Virus record (IMG/VR): IMGVR_UViG_3300043640_000033
Coordinates: 1-36,514 of that record
Length of the DNA stretch: 36,514 bases
Reading direction: 5' to 3' (one strand)
Source: a virus
Shown here: in pieces, positions 16,387 through 25,866 of the stretch
Numbering within the stretch: the stretch's first letter is position 1
How the letters are laid out: each line of letters starts with the position of its first letter
Program-made: the position numbers and the translations under genes
The notes under the pieces: model-generated
Told to the model about the DNA's origin: nothing
Databases searched by the model: none
What the model saw: only the letters and a program-made list of their open reading frames with translations

Positions 16387-19300
16387 CTAGAACTGAACCG
16401 AATCGACCTGTACGAACAGAAGCTTGATGAACCTCAGCGGGTCCTCATGCATCTTGCCCGTAATCTGAACCGAGTGATCCAGATCGTTCACCGGCCGGAC
16501 CCACCAGGCGGAGTCAAGGTCGGATTGCAGGAACAGAGTCCGCCCGCCCGAGAGCAGGTTTCGCAGTTTCAGGAAGTCCTCGCGGTACGCCTGAACCGTG
16601 ATCGGAATCTGATCACCCTTATACCCCTCGGTGAGAACTACCGGGTACTGCTCGCCCAGACCTTGGAAGATGGCCGACGTGTTCGACGTGCTGATATCCA
16701 GCGCCTCGGCCTTCACGTTGATAGCCATCGACAAGTCCGGGTTCAGCGGGTCCTTGAGCCACCACTGACGTGCGACTAGCCGCACCTCCTGCGACTCCGG
16801 ACCGTACGGCGAGATGAAGATGTCGCCCGCCAGGCCGTAGCTCACGGTCCGCGCCCGGTACTTCCGGCTGCTGAGCGGGGTCGCCATCTGATCGATGAAC
16901 GACACCAGACCCGTCAACTGATCGTACTTCAGCAACGCGTGATCGAGACCGGGCAGTGCGGCCCAGTCCCCGTATCCGTCTCCGAGGTCTTCCGCGTACT
17001 GGATATCCGGCACGTTGAAGATCGGGTGCGTGTCCCTGCCCGTTCCGCGACGCCACACTGTGTCCGTGCCGAGCGCCAGAGACACCCGGTCGAACAGCAC
17101 GTAGTCGTCAACCTGCCTGTCCGCAGCGGCAACGCCCAGAGAGACCCTGGTCGTACCGTCGGGGATCGGGAACGAGGTGGCCGCCTTGGTCCACGTCGCC
17201 GTGTTGAACGAGGCGCCCTCGGCGACCTGGGTGGATACCAGCTCGTTGCCGACATAGAAGAACGCCCGAAGGTACGGCGTGCCCGAGGTGGACCCGAGGA
17301 ACGAGGCTTGCACCACGACGTGCCCGGAAGCCCGGTCTATGACCGCCTGATCGATCGAGGTGATGTCAACGTATCCGTCCAGGGTGCAGCCGACTTCGCC
17401 GCCCACAGTGGCAGCCAGGGGCTTCAGGAACCCTATCCAGGCGGTGGACGAAACCCCGGTTGCGCCGGAGAAGCTTCCGTACACCTGCTGGGCGCCCGTC
17501 GTAGCGACCGTGTTGGAGTCGAACACACCCAGAGTCACCCAGGGGTTCGAGGTTCCGGCGGTGCTGTCGGCACGCTGGGTTTCGTCGGCAACCGCGCTGG
17601 GGCCGGTGGTTATCGGCTTGATTATGCCGATCCATGAGGCCGTTGCGTAGGGACTGTCGTTGAGGTACCCGGACCGCGAGTGGTTGCCGGTGGACACCGG
17701 ACCGTTCGAGTCGTAGATAGCCAGCGACGCATCCGGGAAGTTGTTCAGCGAGGTGGAGTTGTCCACACGCTCAATAGCCTCATTGGATGAACTACCGGCA
17801 CCGTACGGGGTCGTCGCCCCGAAGATGCTGATACGCCACGCCTTCGAGTTGCTGTTCGTGACGGTCGGGGTGTTCATGTTCGAGGAACCGCCGTACTGGC
17901 CATCCTCGTCAATGAACTGATTCGCCGCCGTGTCCGCGTTCCGGTAGGCCACGCACTGTGTGACCTTCGGCTGGCCCGTGGAACCGTTCGTGCCCGTCCA
18001 GGAGGACGGCTCAGAACCACCGGCGGTCCGCTTCAGGATCGCCGTGGTGATCGCGCCGGAGTGCTCGTCGCCGAGCCCCGCGTAGTGCGCCTGAACCGTA
18101 CGAACCAGCGTCCAGCCAGAAGGCGCGGTAACCGACACGTAACCCGACAGGGTGATACCGGCAATCATCAGGTCCCCGGAGATCACACCCGAAGGACGGT
18201 TGATCGTGTATGAGTTGCTTGACGAAGTGCTCTGCCAGTTAGACCCGTAGCCCACGAACGCAATAGGCGGAGCACCCGTCGGAGGAAGGGTGTTCGCCGT
18301 CAACGAACCGCCGGTCACATCATCCCGGAAGACGAATGCCGACAGACGCCACGCGCCCGGGTCTGAGTTGCTGACCACGGCAGTGGAGAGAACCGAACCC
18401 TGAGTCGGCGACTTGGACACGTTCTCATCATCGAACTGAGAAGCAACCGGAGCAGCACCCCGGTAGCAGACTACAACAGCCTTCTTGCGGCTGGTGTTCG
18501 TCTCGTTCACGTCGGAGACCCACGTACTGGGGTCCGCCGCCAAGCCGTCCTTCATGAGTACCGTGAGCGAGGTTGACTGGAAGTTGGCGACGTAGTCCAC
18601 GATGGTCCAGCCGACCGGGGGGTTAGCCTCTCCACCCAGGTCTGTTGCCACGAACGCCACCAGCAGGTCACCATCGGCGACCGACGCGGGCTTGTTCAGC
18701 GTGTACCCGCCGCCGTTGCTGACATCCGTGAACACGGCGCCAGTGGACACGTACGAGATCGTAGGAGAAATCCCGTCGTACGTCATCTTGAAAGCCTTCA
18801 GGCCCTCTGCACCGTTGCCCGAGGTCGCCACCCGCGCGTACGTGGACGACAGGGACTCAACCCACGGCTCGTCCGTGATCGGCTCGTCGGCGTCCGAAGC
18901 GGCTGAGGAAAGCAGGTTCCGCGACATGTGACCGCCGTGGGACCAGGCCGAGCCGTCGCCGTACATCAGGCCGATGTCGTCCGCGTTGTGCTGCTCGGCG
19001 TTCGCCGGGGAAGCAACCCCGATGTCCACCGTGGCGTACACGGCATCGTCGGGGGTCATCCCGGAGCACACAAGCTCCGTGAACGAACCCACCGTGTCAG
19101 CACCCGAGATGCTGATAGTACCGGCGCCGGAATTCAGCTCCATGAACGCGAAGTCGTAGAACCGGACCGACAGCGAGCATGTGCGGGCGGTAGCAACCGC
19201 CTGAAGCTGCACCCGGGCGGTAACCTCCGTCTGCGGTGCGATCTCCAGGAACGAAGACGTAGCCGACATGGCAGCCGCAGAAGCGGCCACCATCTTCATA

Positions 19301-20523
19301 CTGCCAGAGCCCGTGTTGTAAGCAACGGCCGTATCCTGCGACAGCGTTGCATTGGCGCCGACAAACCCGAGACTGTCGGTCGTCGTCTCAAAGTCCGCTT
19401 GCTGGACGCTGAGCAGGTTCGAACCGTCCCGCAGCGTAAGGAAGATGTTCGAGGACTCGGCGTCGGCGATGACGGACTCGAAGCCCGAACCACCGCCGGT
19501 GCCGACGCCACCGAACGAGCCTCCGGGGACGCCTGGGCTGGCAGCGTTGCCGACCGTGAACGCGCGGCCCGTCCAGGGAGAACGGGACTCGAACTGTGAA
19601 GTTACGCGGATGTACACGTAGTACGTATCCTGCGCCAGCGCGAACGGCAGGGTGAACGAGGTGATGTCACCGTGGATGAACGCCACCGAAGGGATGGTGA
19701 CTACCTCGCCCGGGTAGATCAGGTCGGGGTCGCCGGACCGCAGCGAGGAAGCCGCGTAGATGTCCGGCCACCTCGTCGCGTCGCCGAGCTTCTTGGCGGC
19801 GATACCCCAGAGGGTGTCACCGGGCTTCACCGTGTACGTGGCCGATTCCGGGTACAGGGCAGGGGACGTATCCGGGTTGAAGGATACGGCCTGCTGCTGC
19901 ACCGCACTGAAGATCTTGTATTCGGCGGTGGCCTGCTGGTCGCCGTCTGCCTGGCTGTACGTCCAGGACACGACGGGCGACGGAGTGTTGACCGTGCCCG
20001 TCGGGTTCTGGATCGTGATGGACGGCCGCACCCGGTAGTTGATCCGGGCATACAGCTCGTACACGCGGACCTTGTTCGACGTACCGGCGGACGAGCTGAC
20101 CTGAAGAACCATGCGGTTCAGGCGGTCCTTCGTCCAGTGGTGGTCTGGGATCGGGTCACGAGTGTACGAGCCGACCTCTATCGTCGTGATAGTGGACGGC
20201 ACTTGGATGGTCCGGGTCGTGTAGCACGCGGTGTTGTCCGTAGAGAACATGTTCACCGTGACGCTGCGGGACGAGGAATCCGTCTTGTTCACCCGCATGA
20301 AGACGGTAACCGAGGTGATTACCGCCCCATCCGGGATGTTGCTGGAACTGATGTCCTGCGGGAAGCGGATAGCCGCCCGGCCGCGCGACGACGGGTTGTA
20401 GATGTACTTACTATCGTCGCCCGTCGCCTGCAACGCGTCATCGACCGCAGACACGCCGGAACCAACCAGACCCCAACCCTCGTTACGATAGGTTGAGTTA
20501 CTGATCAGGTTATAGCTACCCAT
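16387..20523 (-). CDS. Large minor tail protein with LysM and repeated beta modules
   Basis: 1378 residues, the protein after the tape measure, so part of the tail tip. Residues 1-165 form a beta-sandwich-like domain. Residues about 168-325 are fibronectin-like and contain an inserted LysM (about 229-279, TYTVKPGDTLWGIAAKKLG... YPGEVVTIP), which should bind peptidoglycan. The middle and later parts hold at least two copies of a module marked by ...GDL..., PxGWT(I/L)V, SxW and A/CYRxA. The C-terminal ~190 residues resemble the tail-protein end that contacts the hub. The ATG overlaps the end of the tape measure gene by 8 bases. It is probably an adsorption protein. Confidence 0.83.
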   Translation of the reverse strand: MGSYNLISNSTYRNEGWGLVGSGVSAVDDALQATGDDSKYIYNPSSRGRAAIRFPQDISSSNIPDGAVITSVTVFMRVNKTDSSSRSVTVNMFSTDNTACYTTRTIQVPSTITTIEVGSYTRDPIPDHHWTKDRLNRMVLQVSSSAGTSNKVRVYELYARINYRVRPSITIQNPTGTVNTPSPVVSWTYSQADGDQQATAEYKIFSAVQQQAVSFNPDTSPALYPESATYTVKPGDTLWGIAAKKLGDATRWPDIYAASSLRSGDPDLIYPGEVVTIPSVAFIHGDITSFTLPFALAQDTYYVYIRVTSQFESRSPWTGRAFTVGNAASPGVPGGSFGGVGTGGGSGFESVIADAESSNIFLTLRDGSNLLSVQQADFETTTDSLGFVGANATLSQDTAVAYNTGSGSMKMVAASAAAMSATSSFLEIAPQTEVTARVQLQAVATARTCSLSVRFYDFAFMELNSGAGTISISGADTVGSFTELVCSGMTPDDAVYATVDIGVASPANAEQHNADDIGLMYGDGSAWSHGGHMSRNLLSSAASDADEPITDEPWVESLSSTYARVATSGNGAEGLKAFKMTYDGISPTISYVSTGAVFTDVSNGGGYTLNKPASVADGDLLVAFVATDLGGEANPPVGWTIVDYVANFQSTSLTVLMKDGLAADPSTWVSDVNETNTSRKKAVVVCYRGAAPVASQFDDENVSKSPTQGSVLSTAVVSNSDPGAWRLSAFVFRDDVTGGSLTANTLPPTGAPPIAFVGYGSNWQSTSSSNSYTINRPSGVISGDLMIAGITLSGYVSVTAPSGWTLVRTVQAHYAGLGDEHSGAITTAILKRTAGGSEPSSWTGTNGSTGQPKVTQCVAYRNADTAANQFIDEDGQYGGSSNMNTPTVTNSNSKAWRISIFGATTPYGAGSSSNEAIERVDNSTSLNNFPDASLAIYDSNGPVSTGNHSRSGYLNDSPYATASWIGIIKPITTGPSAVADETQRADSTAGTSNPWVTLGVFDSNTVATTGAQQVYGSFSGATGVSSTAWIGFLKPLAATVGGEVGCTLDGYVDITSIDQAVIDRASGHVVVQASFLGSTSGTPYLRAFFYVGNELVSTQVAEGASFNTATWTKAATSFPIPDGTTRVSLGVAAADRQVDDYVLFDRVSLALGTDTVWRRGTGRDTHPIFNVPDIQYAEDLGDGYGDWAALPGLDHALLKYDQLTGLVSFIDQMATPLSSRKYRARTVSYGLAGDIFISPYGPESQEVRLVARQWWLKDPLNPDLSMAINVKAEALDISTSNTSAIFQGLGEQYPVVLTEGYKGDQIPITVQAYREDFLKLRNLLSGGRTLFLQSDLDSAWWVRPVNDLDHSVQITGKMHEDPLRFIKLLFVQVDSVQF

Positions 20524-23500
20524 TGCCGCCTCGCTTCCCTACTCCGGCTGCTACAGCCATCTTGAGCTTAGGCAGAGTGTCATTCTCCAACTGATCCAGC
20601 GTCGCCTGATCTACAGCGCCGGTGAACTTGAACTGGAACGCACCGTCGTGGAACTCGATGTGATCCCCGCCGCCGGACCCGCCGCCCATACCAGCACGGA
20701 ACTTCGCGGTCTTCTTGGCATCCCATACTTTCTCGCCACCCTCAAACCACATCTCAGGGCCGCGCTCACCCATGCGGTGCCACCCAGCCTTAGCCGACTG
20801 CGTACCGATCGCGTACGGGCTACCGGGGATGACCCCGCCGTATTGGTGCTTGATGTAGTTCAGTGCTGCGGCGATGTTCGCCAGCGGGTCAAGGAGGTTG
20901 TTCGACGTACCGGCCACGTGGTACGCGGCAAAGGTAGGCGGAATGACCTGCATAAGACCCTGCGACGGAACGCCGTTCTGTGCGTTGATGTCGTAGTTGT
21001 TGATCGCGTTCGGATTGCCGCCCGACTCGGCGTTCATCAGACCCTCAACATCGCCCAGCAGGCCGGGACTCATACCGTTGAGCGCCAGAGCCTGAAGGAT
21101 GACCGGCGCCCACGCCTGAACAGACTGGCTACCGGCTACCGACATGCTCTCAACGGTCGTCTTCTGCTTGTCCTCGAAGAACTTCAAGGCCCCATCCATC
21201 AGGGTCTTGATTCCCGCGTGAGCCAGGCTACCGGCGGGCTTCGGAGTGCCCGGAGGGGCAGGGTCCGGAACCTTGTCAACGATGCCATTCAGCAGCGGCT
21301 TCAAAGCGTCAAAGATGTTGAATCCGAAGACGCTTGACAGGAACCCGAGGTCACCGGCGATGATCGAACCACCGGCACCTATTATGCTTCCGATGTTGCC
21401 GGAGATGTAACCAGCGATGTCGGAAATGACGCCACCGACCGCGCCAGCCGCACCGCCCAGAGCGTCGCCGATGGAGTCGAGCACGCCGTTGCCGACCTTG
21501 TGGATACCAGCGGCATCTACGATGGCCTTCTGTTGGGCCGTGAGGGCCTTGTATTGGTCATCCCCTATGCGCTGCTCGCTGCCCTTCCAGTAGGTGTTAG
21601 GAACGCCATCTGCGGCCCGCTGGGCTGAAGTCTCGTTCGCCGGGCCACCGTCCGCCAGGCGGCGGATCGAACCGCCGTCGGCATAGCGCCCCGCGTTGAT
21701 CTGATTCAGGGTGCTTACGCCGTACTTCCGGACGGAGGACGCCTTGACCACGTACTCACCGGCCGAGAGCAGCGCGGGGATCTTGTCGTTCCTCTGCGTG
21801 CCGGGAAGGCCGTTCGACAGGTGACCGCCACCGGCGAACGCCGTTGCGCCACCGCCGCCACTCGTCGGGCCCGTTACCGAACCTCCGGATGCCAGCTTGA
21901 TAGAGTCCAGACCGACCGCGCCAGCCACCTTGTTCCAGATGGTGACTACAGCGTTGATCGGGGTCTTGAACACGTCAACGATCTTGTTCCAGATGGTCTT
22001 TGCTGCGGAAACCAGACCAGAAAGAACCGACTGGACGCCAGAGCTGAACGACTTGAAACCCGAAGTGATCGAAGACCATATGGTAGTTGCCGTGGTCTTG
22101 ATCGCGTTCCACATTCCAGACCAAGCGGTCTTCATGGCACTGGAGAACGTGCCGAACGCCGAGCTGAGTGCCGACCACAAGCCGGACCAAGCGGTCTTCA
22201 TGGCGGAGGAGAAGGACGCCCACGCGGACGAGAGCGCCGACCAGATGCCAGACCAAGCCGTCTTCATGGCACTGGAGAACGTGGCCCACGCCGAGCTGAG
22301 CGCCGACCACAGACCCGACCAAGCCGTCTTCATGGCGCTTGAGAAAGCCGCCCACGCGGAGGACAGGGCCGCCCAGATGCCGGACCAAGCCGTCTTCATG
22401 GCCGAACTGAAAGTCGCCCACGCGGCGGACAGGGCCGTCCACAGACCCGACCAAGCCGTCTTCATGGCGGAGGAGAAGGACGCCCACGCGGTGGACAGGG
22501 CTGCGGTGAAGGCGGACCAGGCAACTTGCAGCGCCGTCCATACTGCCTTCGCTGAAGTGGCGAGACCGGTCCACACGGTGTTCCAGGCGACAACGAGCGC
22601 CCCTGAAACGGTAGTCCAGACCAGGGCCATTGCGTTGATGAACGCCGACCATGCGATCTGCATAGCAGCCCATATGGTCTGGGCTGCGATCTGCAACCCG
22701 GTCCACACGGTGTTCCAGGCGACAACCAGGGCACCGGAAACGGTAGTCCACACCAGGGCCATGGAATTGATGAACGCCGACCAGGCTATCTGGAGAGCGT
22801 TCCATACGGTCTGGGCGGCAATCTGAATGCCGGTCCATACGGTCTGCCAGTTGGCTGCCAGGAGGATTAGCCATCCCACCGGCCCGAGCGCCAGAACGAG
22901 AAGGCCCCACTTGGACTGAAGGAACGTCACGACAAGGTCGAACACCGCCTTCATGCCGTTCCACACGGTGTTCCATGTGGACACCAGGGCAGTCTTTACG
23001 GTGTTCCAGTGATCCACCAGGAAGAACAGGCCAACGCCGAGCGCGATTACCGCGAGGGTGACCAGCACGATCGGGTTGGCATCCATGGCTGCATTGAAGA
23101 GCCAAGTTGCCGCAGTGGCGACACCGGACGCGGCTGCCATCAGAAGTTCTTGCACCTTCAGGGCGGCCAGCTCTATGCGCGTAAGGAGACACGCGTCACG
23201 GATGGCGGTGAACGCGGCGGCCATACCAGTCAGACCGGCGGTAATGCCGCTCACCACGGCCACACCGGCCATGGCAACCTTCCATGCGACGAAGGCGACG
23301 GCGATAGCGTCAATAACCTTCGGCGGCATGGCAGCTATCAGCTTCGCCATGTATACCGACACCTGCAAGGCTATCGGGGACATGTCGAACATCGACTTGG
23401 ACACGTTGCCCAAGATCTGGGCAAGGCTGGACAAGAGCTGCTTGATCTGTGGTGAGTTGGACTTGATATAGGCCAGGAAGTCCTGGAATCCGCCACCCTC

Positions 23501-24196
23501 AGCCCAGCCCTTCAGCTTGGCCGACAGAACAGCTAGACCGTTGGACATCTGTATGGCCATGGGCCCGAACGCCTTCAGCATGTCCCCGAACACAACACCC
23601 AGGTTCTTGCCTATGGTGATGAAGTTCGAGAGGATCGGCCCACCGGTGGCAACGATCCAATTCAGCCAACCCTGGAGCTTGTTGTCAGTCCAGGACTTGA
23701 ACCCCTGAGCCACGGAGTCGAGTTGCGGGCGCAGTGCAATGATGGGCCCGGCCAGCTCGCCGATAATCTTGGTGAGCGAAGCAATCATCGAGTACATAGG
23801 CTGGAACAGCGCGGGAGCAACCTTGTTGCCAAGGCTTATGAAAGTCCCCTTTATGGAGATGATCTCATTGTTAAGAATCTTGCCCTGCTTGGTGGTGGAC
23901 GCCAAAGCAGCGGCGATGCCGATGCCCAGAAGACCGAACGCGGCGCCACCGGCGGTGGCCATGGTGACCAGACCGGCGCCGGTGGCAACCGCAGCCGCAC
24001 CAATGGGGATGATGGCCGGAGCAAGCCCTATGGCCGCCTGCGTCATCGCTTTGAACGCAGATGTAGACGTTGAAATACTCGCACTCGACTGTTTTACACT
24101 ACCGTCGAGACTGTTCAAGTCCCGCCTGGCCGCCGCAGTTCCCGCACCGTTGTAGGTTGAGAAAATGCTGAAACCAAGGGTCGTGATCGTAGCCAC
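20516..24196 (-). CDS. Tape measure protein with C-terminal transglycosylase domain
   Basis: 1226 residues from the GTG at 24196, two bases after the chaperone frame stops. The N-terminal region is Ala/Gly-rich and hydrophobic. The centre has Trp/Phe-marked helical repeats: two units of 44 residues (WNTVWTGLQIAAQT... type), then six occurrences of MKTAWSG(L/I/M)W at 22-residue spacing. The C-terminal part holds a soluble SLT domain (about 1045-1115, E1057 in MNAESGG, QGLMQVIPPTF). Tape measure length sets tail length at roughly 0.15 nm per residue, so a tail of under about 185 nm is expected. The SLT domain would open peptidoglycan during DNA entry. Confidence 0.93.
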   Translation of the reverse strand: MATITTLGFSIFSTYNGAGTAAARRDLNSLDGSVKQSSASISTSTSAFKAMTQAAIGLAPAIIPIGAAAVATGAGLVTMATAGGAAFGLLGIGIAAALASTTKQGKILNNEIISIKGTFISLGNKVAPALFQPMYSMIASLTKIIGELAGPIIALRPQLDSVAQGFKSWTDNKLQGWLNWIVATGGPILSNFITIGKNLGVVFGDMLKAFGPMAIQMSNGLAVLSAKLKGWAEGGGFQDFLAYIKSNSPQIKQLLSSLAQILGNVSKSMFDMSPIALQVSVYMAKLIAAMPPKVIDAIAVAFVAWKVAMAGVAVVSGITAGLTGMAAAFTAIRDACLLTRIELAALKVQELLMAAASGVATAATWLFNAAMDANPIVLVTLAVIALGVGLFFLVDHWNTVKTALVSTWNTVWNGMKAVFDLVVTFLQSKWGLLVLALGPVGWLILLAANWQTVWTGIQIAAQTVWNALQIAWSAFINSMALVWTTVSGALVVAWNTVWTGLQIAAQTIWAAMQIAWSAFINAMALVWTTVSGALVVAWNTVWTGLATSAKAVWTALQVAWSAFTAALSTAWASFSSAMKTAWSGLWTALSAAWATFSSAMKTAWSGIWAALSSAWAAFSSAMKTAWSGLWSALSSAWATFSSAMKTAWSGIWSALSSAWASFSSAMKTAWSGLWSALSSAFGTFSSAMKTAWSGMWNAIKTTATTIWSSITSGFKSFSSGVQSVLSGLVSAAKTIWNKIVDVFKTPINAVVTIWNKVAGAVGLDSIKLASGGSVTGPTSGGGGATAFAGGGHLSNGLPGTQRNDKIPALLSAGEYVVKASSVRKYGVSTLNQINAGRYADGGSIRRLADGGPANETSAQRAADGVPNTYWKGSEQRIGDDQYKALTAQQKAIVDAAGIHKVGNGVLDSIGDALGGAAGAVGGVISDIAGYISGNIGSIIGAGGSIIAGDLGFLSSVFGFNIFDALKPLLNGIVDKVPDPAPPGTPKPAGSLAHAGIKTLMDGALKFFEDKQKTTVESMSVAGSQSVQAWAPVILQALALNGMSPGLLGDVEGLMNAESGGNPNAINNYDINAQNGVPSQGLMQVIPPTFAAYHVAGTSNNLLDPLANIAAALNYIKHQYGGVIPGSPYAIGTQSAKAGWHRMGERGPEMWFEGGEKVWDAKKTAKFRAGMGGGSGGGDHIEFHDGAFQFKFTGAVDQATLDQLENDTLPKLKMAVAAGVGKRGGNG
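22121..22516 (-). repeat. Tandem 66-bp repeats in the tape measure gene
   Basis: The plus-strand string CCAAGC(G/C)GTCTTCATGGC recurs at 22121, 22187, 22253, 22319, 22385 and 22451, exactly every 66 bases, encoding a 22-residue helical unit. Units vary mainly at third positions and a few residues. Directly upstream in the gene (towards 22830) is a related 132-bp (44-residue) repeat present twice, with GGTCCACACGGTGTTCCAGG at 22568 and 22700. Confidence 0.92.
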
Positions 24197-24198
24197 AG

Positions 24199-24501
24199 TT
24201 ACTCCCCTTCGTCTTCCTCAAGTCCAAACTCACCGGGTCGCGGGTAGTGAATTACCGGGGGAGCCTCTTCGGGGTCCTTCATGTTCACAGCCATGAGAAC
24301 TTGCTTCAACGACTGCAACTCTTCATGGATGTTGGCGAGTGCTTCCTCGCTGTACCGACTGCCGATCGGACCGGCAACAAGCTCGTAAGCCTGGTACTCG
24401 GTAAGTTGACGAGCGCTCATTGTGTCAAGCAGCTCGTCAACTGTCAGACCAAGCGTCAGAGAGAGTCGGAAGTAGAACTCTCGTTCTGGTCGGAATCGGA
24501 G
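24199..24501 (-). CDS. Tail assembly chaperone, -1 frameshift extension (gpT part)
   Basis: 100 residues appended to the first 123 residues of the upstream chaperone when ribosomes slip -1 at 24507-24501, giving a 223-residue fusion. After the slip the frame reads RPEREFYFRLSLTLGLTVDELLDTMSARQ in short pieces (RPEREFYFRL, LGLTVDELL, MSARQLTEYQAYE), the usual gpT-like pattern in siphoviruses. It is open with no stop until 24199. The internal ATG at 24420 could be mistaken for a start but has no ribosome site. gpG/gpGT act with the tape measure during tail assembly and are absent from the virion. Confidence 0.85.
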   Translation of the reverse strand, partial: LRFRPEREFYFRLSLTLGLTVDELLDTMSARQLTEYQAYELVAGPIGSRYSEEALANIHEELQSLKQVLMAVNMKDPEEAPPVIHYPRPGEFGLEEDEGE

Positions 24502-24869
24502 TTTCCCGCCAGTTCCTCCACGTCAGCCGGAGACAGACCCGACAGCTTCTGAGCTGCGTCCGCTACCCGGTCAAGGGCCTTGGCGGACTTGTCGCCGAGC
24601 TGCTTGATGTCCGGGTTGGAGAACTGAACTTCGCCATCCTCGTCAACGATGGACAGGGCGACCAGGCGGGCGCGAAGGTTCTCGACATTCCGCTTCTGCT
24701 CGCCCTTCCTGTTGACGTCCACCATGGAAGCCTCGAAGGCGTCGCGCTCCTTGCCGGACAGGGAGCGGATACGAACCTCGTCGTCCCCGTCGGTCGCCCA
24801 CTCGGGGACCTTCACGATTTCGTAGCGACGGTCGTCGGCTGCCAGAATCTGACCACGTTTCAATGCCAT
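24456..24869 (-). CDS. Tail assembly chaperone (gpG-like)
   Basis: 137 residues, MALKRGQILAADDRRYEIVKVPEW..., acidic, with the KERDAFEASMV helix common in this family and ending in a Ser/Asp-rich disordered tail (DSDQNESSTSDSL). It lies between the tail tube region and the tape measure, the usual place. The zero-frame product is made most of the time; part of the ribosomes shift at G GGA AAC (residues 122-123) to give the longer form. An intercistronic hairpin lies just upstream of the gene. Confidence 0.87.
   Translation of the reverse strand: MALKRGQILAADDRRYEIVKVPEWATDGDDEVRIRSLSGKERDAFEASMVDVNRKGEQKRNVENLRARLVALSIVDEDGEVQFSNPDIKQLGDKSAKALDRVADAAQKLSGLSPADVEELAGNSDSDQNESSTSDSL
24501..24507 (-). 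promoter_or_regulatory. Programmed -1 ribosomal frameshift site G GGA AAC
   Basis: The minus strand reads GCG GGA AAC in the zero frame, so the heptamer G GGA AAC fits the X XXY YYZ rule exactly. It is 45 bases before the zero-frame stop, and the -1 frame stays open from here for 100 codons that look like a chaperone extension. This is the position where siphoviruses place their G-GT frameshift. Confidence 0.88.
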
Positions 24870-24951: not shown

Positions 24952-25446
24952 TCAGAGATGATTGCCACCGGCAGCGGCTATCTGGTCTCTTGCATCCTGA
25001 AGAACCTGGTTCACGCGCTCTTCAAGGAAGTCCTGATCATCTGCGATGGTCTCGCGGAACCACGAACCACCGGCCTGATTCACCCAGTTGTCCGTGTTGC
25101 CGAACACCGGATGTCGCCAGCCCTGCGCGCCCGAGTCTTCACCACGAGGCAACGCTTCCTCACCGGCTGGCATCTTCGTGACGATGCGCATCCGGGCCGA
25201 CTTGCCGACACCGGCCTGAACACCAACACCCTTAGCGAGGCGGGTGCGCAGACCGGTGTGTTTGCCCTTCCGGGCCGGTAGCGCGAGGGCCGCCGCGCGC
25301 ACGTCTTGGACGATGGGCGTAGCGGCCTTCTTGAGAGCTGCGCGAAACCTACTGGGCGCTTTGGTGTCCATGTCACGAAGGGCATTAGCTACCCGCGTGA
25401 ATTCCGGACCAGCCTCCACCCATACGTTTACACCGTCGCGCGCCAT
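24952..25446 (-). CDS. Putative tail-completion/connector protein (HK97 gp10-like)
   Basis: 164 residues. The N-terminal half has a helix with APSRFRAALKKAATPIVQDVRAAA followed by a basic loop (KGKHTGLRTRLAKGV). The C-terminal half has a short strand region ending WRHPVFGNTDNWVNQ and a long helix (ERVNQVLQDARDQI). This order, with HPVFGN before W, is typical of HK97 gp10-like head-tail connector proteins. It lies after the tail tube gene here instead of before the terminator gene, a small departure from common order. Confidence 0.6.
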   Translation of the reverse strand: MARDGVNVWVEAGPEFTRVANALRDMDTKAPSRFRAALKKAATPIVQDVRAAALALPARKGKHTGLRTRLAKGVGVQAGVGKSARMRIVTKMPAGEEALPRGEDSGAQGWRHPVFGNTDNWVNQAGGSWFRETIADDQDFLEERVNQVLQDARDQIAAAGGNHL

Positions 25447-25449
25447 TGG

Positions 25450-25866
25450 TTACGCCGTTGCCCGGGTGATGCCGGTCCGCTGGGTCGGGAACTTGACCTT
25501 CGTTTCGGACAGGTCGCCAACCTTGCCGTCCAGCGGGGAGTACTCGAACAGCACGCACGTGGCGGTGTACGAAGGGTTGTTCTCAGACACGGCGTTCGAG
25601 GTGGGGCGGACCTCGATCTCGAACTCGGTCTCGTTGTCGTACAGGGGGTACAGAACGGCGTCGGTAGAGCCGTCGGCGTAGTCCTGCTGAAGGTTGATCT
25701 CGAAGGAGTCGTCCTTCAGACCGGCGACGCGCTCACGGCCCGCGCCGGAGAACGAGGTAGTCTCGACATCGTCCTTGGTCAGGTTCAGTGTGACCTCGGA
25801 GGCGTGGTCGCTGAAGTTGGTACCGTTGATGCTGATGAAGCAGTCTTTCAGCACGATCTTGGGCAT
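25450..25866 (-). CDS. Major tail (tube) protein
   Basis: 138 residues, beta-rich: IVLKDCFISINGTNFSDHASEVTLNLTKD..VETTSFSGAGRERVAGLKDDSFEINLQQDY in consecutive pieces, the pattern of actinophage tail tube subunits, including the conserved ..T.FSG.G...GLKD.S... segment. It polymerises as the hollow tail tube around the tape measure. It is expected to be one of the most abundant virion proteins; a hairpin lies a gene downstream. Confidence 0.83.
   Translation of the reverse strand: MPKIVLKDCFISINGTNFSDHASEVTLNLTKDDVETTSFSGAGRERVAGLKDDSFEINLQQDYADGSTDAVLYPLYDNETEFEIEVRPTSNAVSENNPSYTATCVLFEYSPLDGKVGDLSETKVKFPTQRTGITRATA

Follow-up and report, generated by a model that had tools for sequence, protein, structure and literature searches.

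The DNA analysed here (the window, a 36,514-nucleotide stretch from a virus) carries on its minus strand a set of tail genes whose order, namely major tail protein, one small gene, G, T and tape measure, is that usual for phage tail operons. The major tail protein (25450..25866) has 138 aa and matches PHROG 4574 (E=5e-29), while the tape measure protein (20516..24196) has 1226 aa, matches PHROG 167 (E=2e-50) and contains an SLT domain (PF01464). Between them lie a protein of 164 aa (24952-25446) from a phage family without a name, phrog_11991, and, adjoining the tape measure gene, a pair of overlapping frames that encode a G-type tail assembly chaperone (24456..24869) and its T extension (24199..24501). 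The Rhodococcus relatives, too, have an unnamed gene ahead of G, and the Streptomyces relatives have none there. On the 3' side of the tape measure gene, and overlapping its end by 8 nt, lies the gene for a 1378-aa protein (16387-20523, minus strand) with a LysM domain (PF01476, E=2.5e-8).

The zero-frame G protein starts at ATG 24869, ends at TGA 24458-24456 and comprises 137 aa. Close to the end of G the minus strand reads GTG GAG GAA CTG GCG GGA AAC TCC GAT, and a slippery heptamer of the form X_XXY_YYZ, GGGAAAC, occupies 24507-24501; as its position and phase were determined by script to be offset 362 (phase 2) in the frame opened by ATG 24869, it is read G_GGA_AAC, and it is the sole GGGAAAN on the minus strand of the window. 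The second frame is displaced by -1 from the first, is open from 24522 (with a TGA upstream at 24525-24523) to TAA 24201-24199, and supplies 100 codons past the slip site, with no stop between 24501 and 24420. Two bases separate this TAA from the GTG start of the tape measure gene at 24196. An earlier note on this DNA, prepared from the letters alone, had placed the heptamer here in the correct phase, and had described a 100-codon extension ending two bases before the tape measure start, a 137-residue product and a 223-residue fusion; all of its coordinates hold, and both lengths were reproduced by our reconstruction, in which a fusion spanning 24199..24869 is made of 123+100 = 223 aa.

Both parts of this fusion are homologous to tail chaperones. 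Searches against PHROG linked the zero-frame protein to family 344, tail assembly chaperone (E=7e-28), and the extension to phrog_32980 (E=1e-15) and also to phrog_337, tail protein (E=2e-9). In Pfam, the zero-frame protein gave a sub-threshold match to Phage_TAC_13 (16.8 bits, where 28.8 are required), and the extension gave no match. In tblastn searches the G half and the T half, used separately, found the same 19 phage records, with hosts in Streptomyces, Rhodococcus and Thermobifida, and the two matches were adjacent to one another; identity in the G half ranged from 37 to 53% across these actinophages, and a conserved core was visible in the alignments of each half. The PHROG tail families and the tblastn relatives agree with the chaperone-like character that had been proposed for the extension.

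Annotation was compared in 12 of the 19 records. A two-piece joined CDS is annotated in three (Jflix2, phiSASD1 and Dubu), and a separate downstream CDS was deposited in nine. GGGAAAC stands at the junction in all seven Streptomyces records among those compared, including phiSASD1 and Dubu, which resemble the window in their G part (47-49% identity), in the matched part of T (53-55%) and in the identical heptamer; in these two phages, however, the zero-frame stop follows directly after the heptamer, whereas in the window G runs 14 residues further. The closest G parts (45-53% identity) belong to the Rhodococcus phages REQ1, Madraxi, Jflix2 and Shagrat, which share the layout of the window, including the extra small gene ahead of G, but differ from it in the heptamer, which is GGGTTTC in Jflix2 and the non-canonical ATCTTTC, GTCTTTC or GGATTTC elsewhere. 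The alignment with related phage chaperones that had been put forward as a check bears out the proposal: both halves are homologous, T is in the -1 frame in all loci that could be analysed, and a heptamer is kept at most of the joins.

To these phage records we added 164 IMG/VR loci, for 177 loci in all, the window and duplicates included. Of the 177, 173 yielded a G and T pair, and every one of these (173/173) has T in the -1 frame relative to G. The join bears a canonical heptamer in 111 of the 138 distinct loci, again with the window included; since many loci are close relatives of one another, these conservation counts do not represent independent events. AAAAAAC accounts for 47 of the 111, GGGAAAC for 26 (the window and 25 others), GGGTTTC for 16, AAATTTC for 13, and other heptamers for the remaining 9. 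The phase of these motifs is strongly biased: of the slippery heptamers in the last 120 nt of the 138 genes, 112 are in the -1 phase against 11 and 0 in the other two, while the preceding 240 nt of the same genes contain 2, 6 and 0, respectively. The amino acids read in the zero frame at the site vary with the motif (GN, KN, GF or NF), so selection appears to act on slipperiness rather than on the peptide encoded at the slip site. The joining of two tail assembly chaperone frames by a -1 shift, as the earlier note had it, is accordingly supported, as far as sequence comparison can speak to it, by homology, by the invariant -1 relation and by the conserved heptamer at the junction.

The 27 of 138 loci that are without a canonical heptamer mostly have G_GAT_TTC or N_TCT_TTC in the equivalent position, which suggests that a non-canonical slip site recurs in this family of chaperones. 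Re-pairing at such sites is possible in the A-site (UUC to UUU) and poorer in the P-site. GGATTTC (14 loci), GTCTTTC and ATCTTTC were all seen at the slip position, for instance at offset 359 of the G frame in Shagrat and at offset 353 in P1312. Among annotated phage frameshifts, a 2024 study likewise describes many that are without the canonical motif (PMC10885494).

Folding of the RNA around the slip site revealed a hairpin with a perfect 11-bp stem, an inverted repeat within the coding part of T (24404..24442, minus strand), whose loop holds ATG 24420. It lies 58 nt past the slip site, beyond the usual distance of a stimulator; the element expected in that role is a conserved stem-loop or pseudoknot 5-10 nt past the heptamer. 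The 100 nt past the slip site fold with -36.7 kcal/mol (z=-4.0 against shuffled sequences), mainly owing to this hairpin, and the first 60 nt have weak structure (z=-0.9). No counterpart of the hairpin at a fixed place was found in the relatives, and among 110 loci searched for perfect stems there was no conserved downstream stem at a common position, the stems being scattered and the median z being -1.0; Rfam gave no match. A Shine-Dalgarno-like element upstream of the slip site, GGAGGA at 24519-24514, was considered as a stimulator and is not put forward as one, for its recurrence in many relatives is explicable by the conserved VEEL codons together with a general preference for GAG. One might further propose that the distal hairpin is active, whether in suppressing internal starts at ATG 24420 or in slowing ribosomes and so tuning the G:G-T ratio, and that sites with non-standard re-pairing in the P-site (mainly G_GAT_TTC, also N_TCT_TTC) do the same job in most relatives lacking the canonical heptamer; we regard this combined proposal as rather unlikely.

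We consider the locus to be, almost certainly, a programmed -1 ribosomal frameshift of the lambda G/GT type, as found in the tail operon of long-tailed phages. An annotator could nonetheless read the downstream part as a gene of its own, since an in-frame ATG at 24420 would yield a protein of 73 aa with no frameshift, and a separate CDS is the form deposited for nine of the twelve relatives compared. However, the most conserved segment of T (RPEREFYFRLSLTLGLTVDELLDT), which partly overlaps the end of G, lies upstream of ATG 24420 and would therefore go untranslated if the gene began there. ATG 24420 is moreover unlikely as a start codon, as the sequence ahead of it (GACGAGCTGCTTGACACA) contains no Shine-Dalgarno sequence and the codon itself is placed in the loop of the 11-bp hairpin. 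With the conserved upstream residues, the missing Shine-Dalgarno sequence and the hairpin loop all opposed to it, we rule out a separate gene from ATG 24420 as exceedingly improbable.

Ribosomal frameshifting might also be replaced as an explanation by transcriptional slippage, or the -1 join might be merely apparent and due to a sequencing error. The runs at the slip site are just GGG and AAA, and runs as short as these are too short for typical polymerase slippage; furthermore, the same -1 relation recurs in 173 loci, most of which come from independent sequencing, and we give an origin of either kind scarcely any credence. As for mere coincidence, each feature taken singly is infrequent without being extraordinary: in shuffled sequences the extension stays open over its 100 codons in about 1.4% of cases (69 of 5000), and dinucleotide shuffling of the 64-nt overlap produces a slippery heptamer that is in phase and has an A/T A-site about 1.5% of the time. 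Chance is nevertheless untenable given the conservation of the heptamer in one phase across 138 genes, and the homology of the -1 product speaks against it as well, such that its probability is vanishingly small.

In the programmed frameshift that we favour, most ribosomes would complete the 137-aa G protein, and a minority would slip back one base on G_GGA_AAC, their tRNAs re-pairing with GGG and AAA, to produce the 223-aa G-T. In lambda many copies of gpG bind to the tape measure protein, and gpGT, the rarer of the two, binds the major tail protein through its T part; the gpG:gpGT ratio, about 30:1, is important for assembly (PMC5009743, an account of the lambda frameshift that cites Levin 1993 and Xu 2004, 2013 and 2014). 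Gene order, homology and the frame relation support the same scheme here, and we infer from them the occurrence of the shift, its rate and the roles of the proteins in the window phage. By analogy with lambda, G would coat the tape measure protein in many copies, the less abundant G-T would recruit the major tail protein through its T domain, and the ratio of G to G-T would control tail assembly.

Judged from its sequence, the locus adds a new and well-supported case, clear but ordinary, to the known class of lambda-type G/GT -1 frameshifts. The annotation of the two products is settled for the window phage, and the call of a false small gene, against which the earlier note had warned, is prevented. 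The alignment of 138 junctions, in which the type of slip site changes and the frame relation stays fixed, makes a useful comparative set and introduces no new principle.

Two forms of a tail-building helper protein are made from one message in lambda and in most long-tailed phages, where a one-base backward slip by part of the ribosomes close to the gene's end gives the second form. The window shares with lambda the position of the two frames, after the major tail gene and before that of the tape measure, the -1 direction of the shift, a heptamer near the 3' end of G, and a short protein accompanied by a longer fusion. It differs from lambda in that its proteins have diverged, in that one additional small gene separates the major tail protein from G, and in the slip site, which is G_GGA_AAC in the window and G_GGA_AAG in lambda. 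The heptamer of the window is itself listed as the g-t site of another phage, HCTV-1 (PMC5009743).
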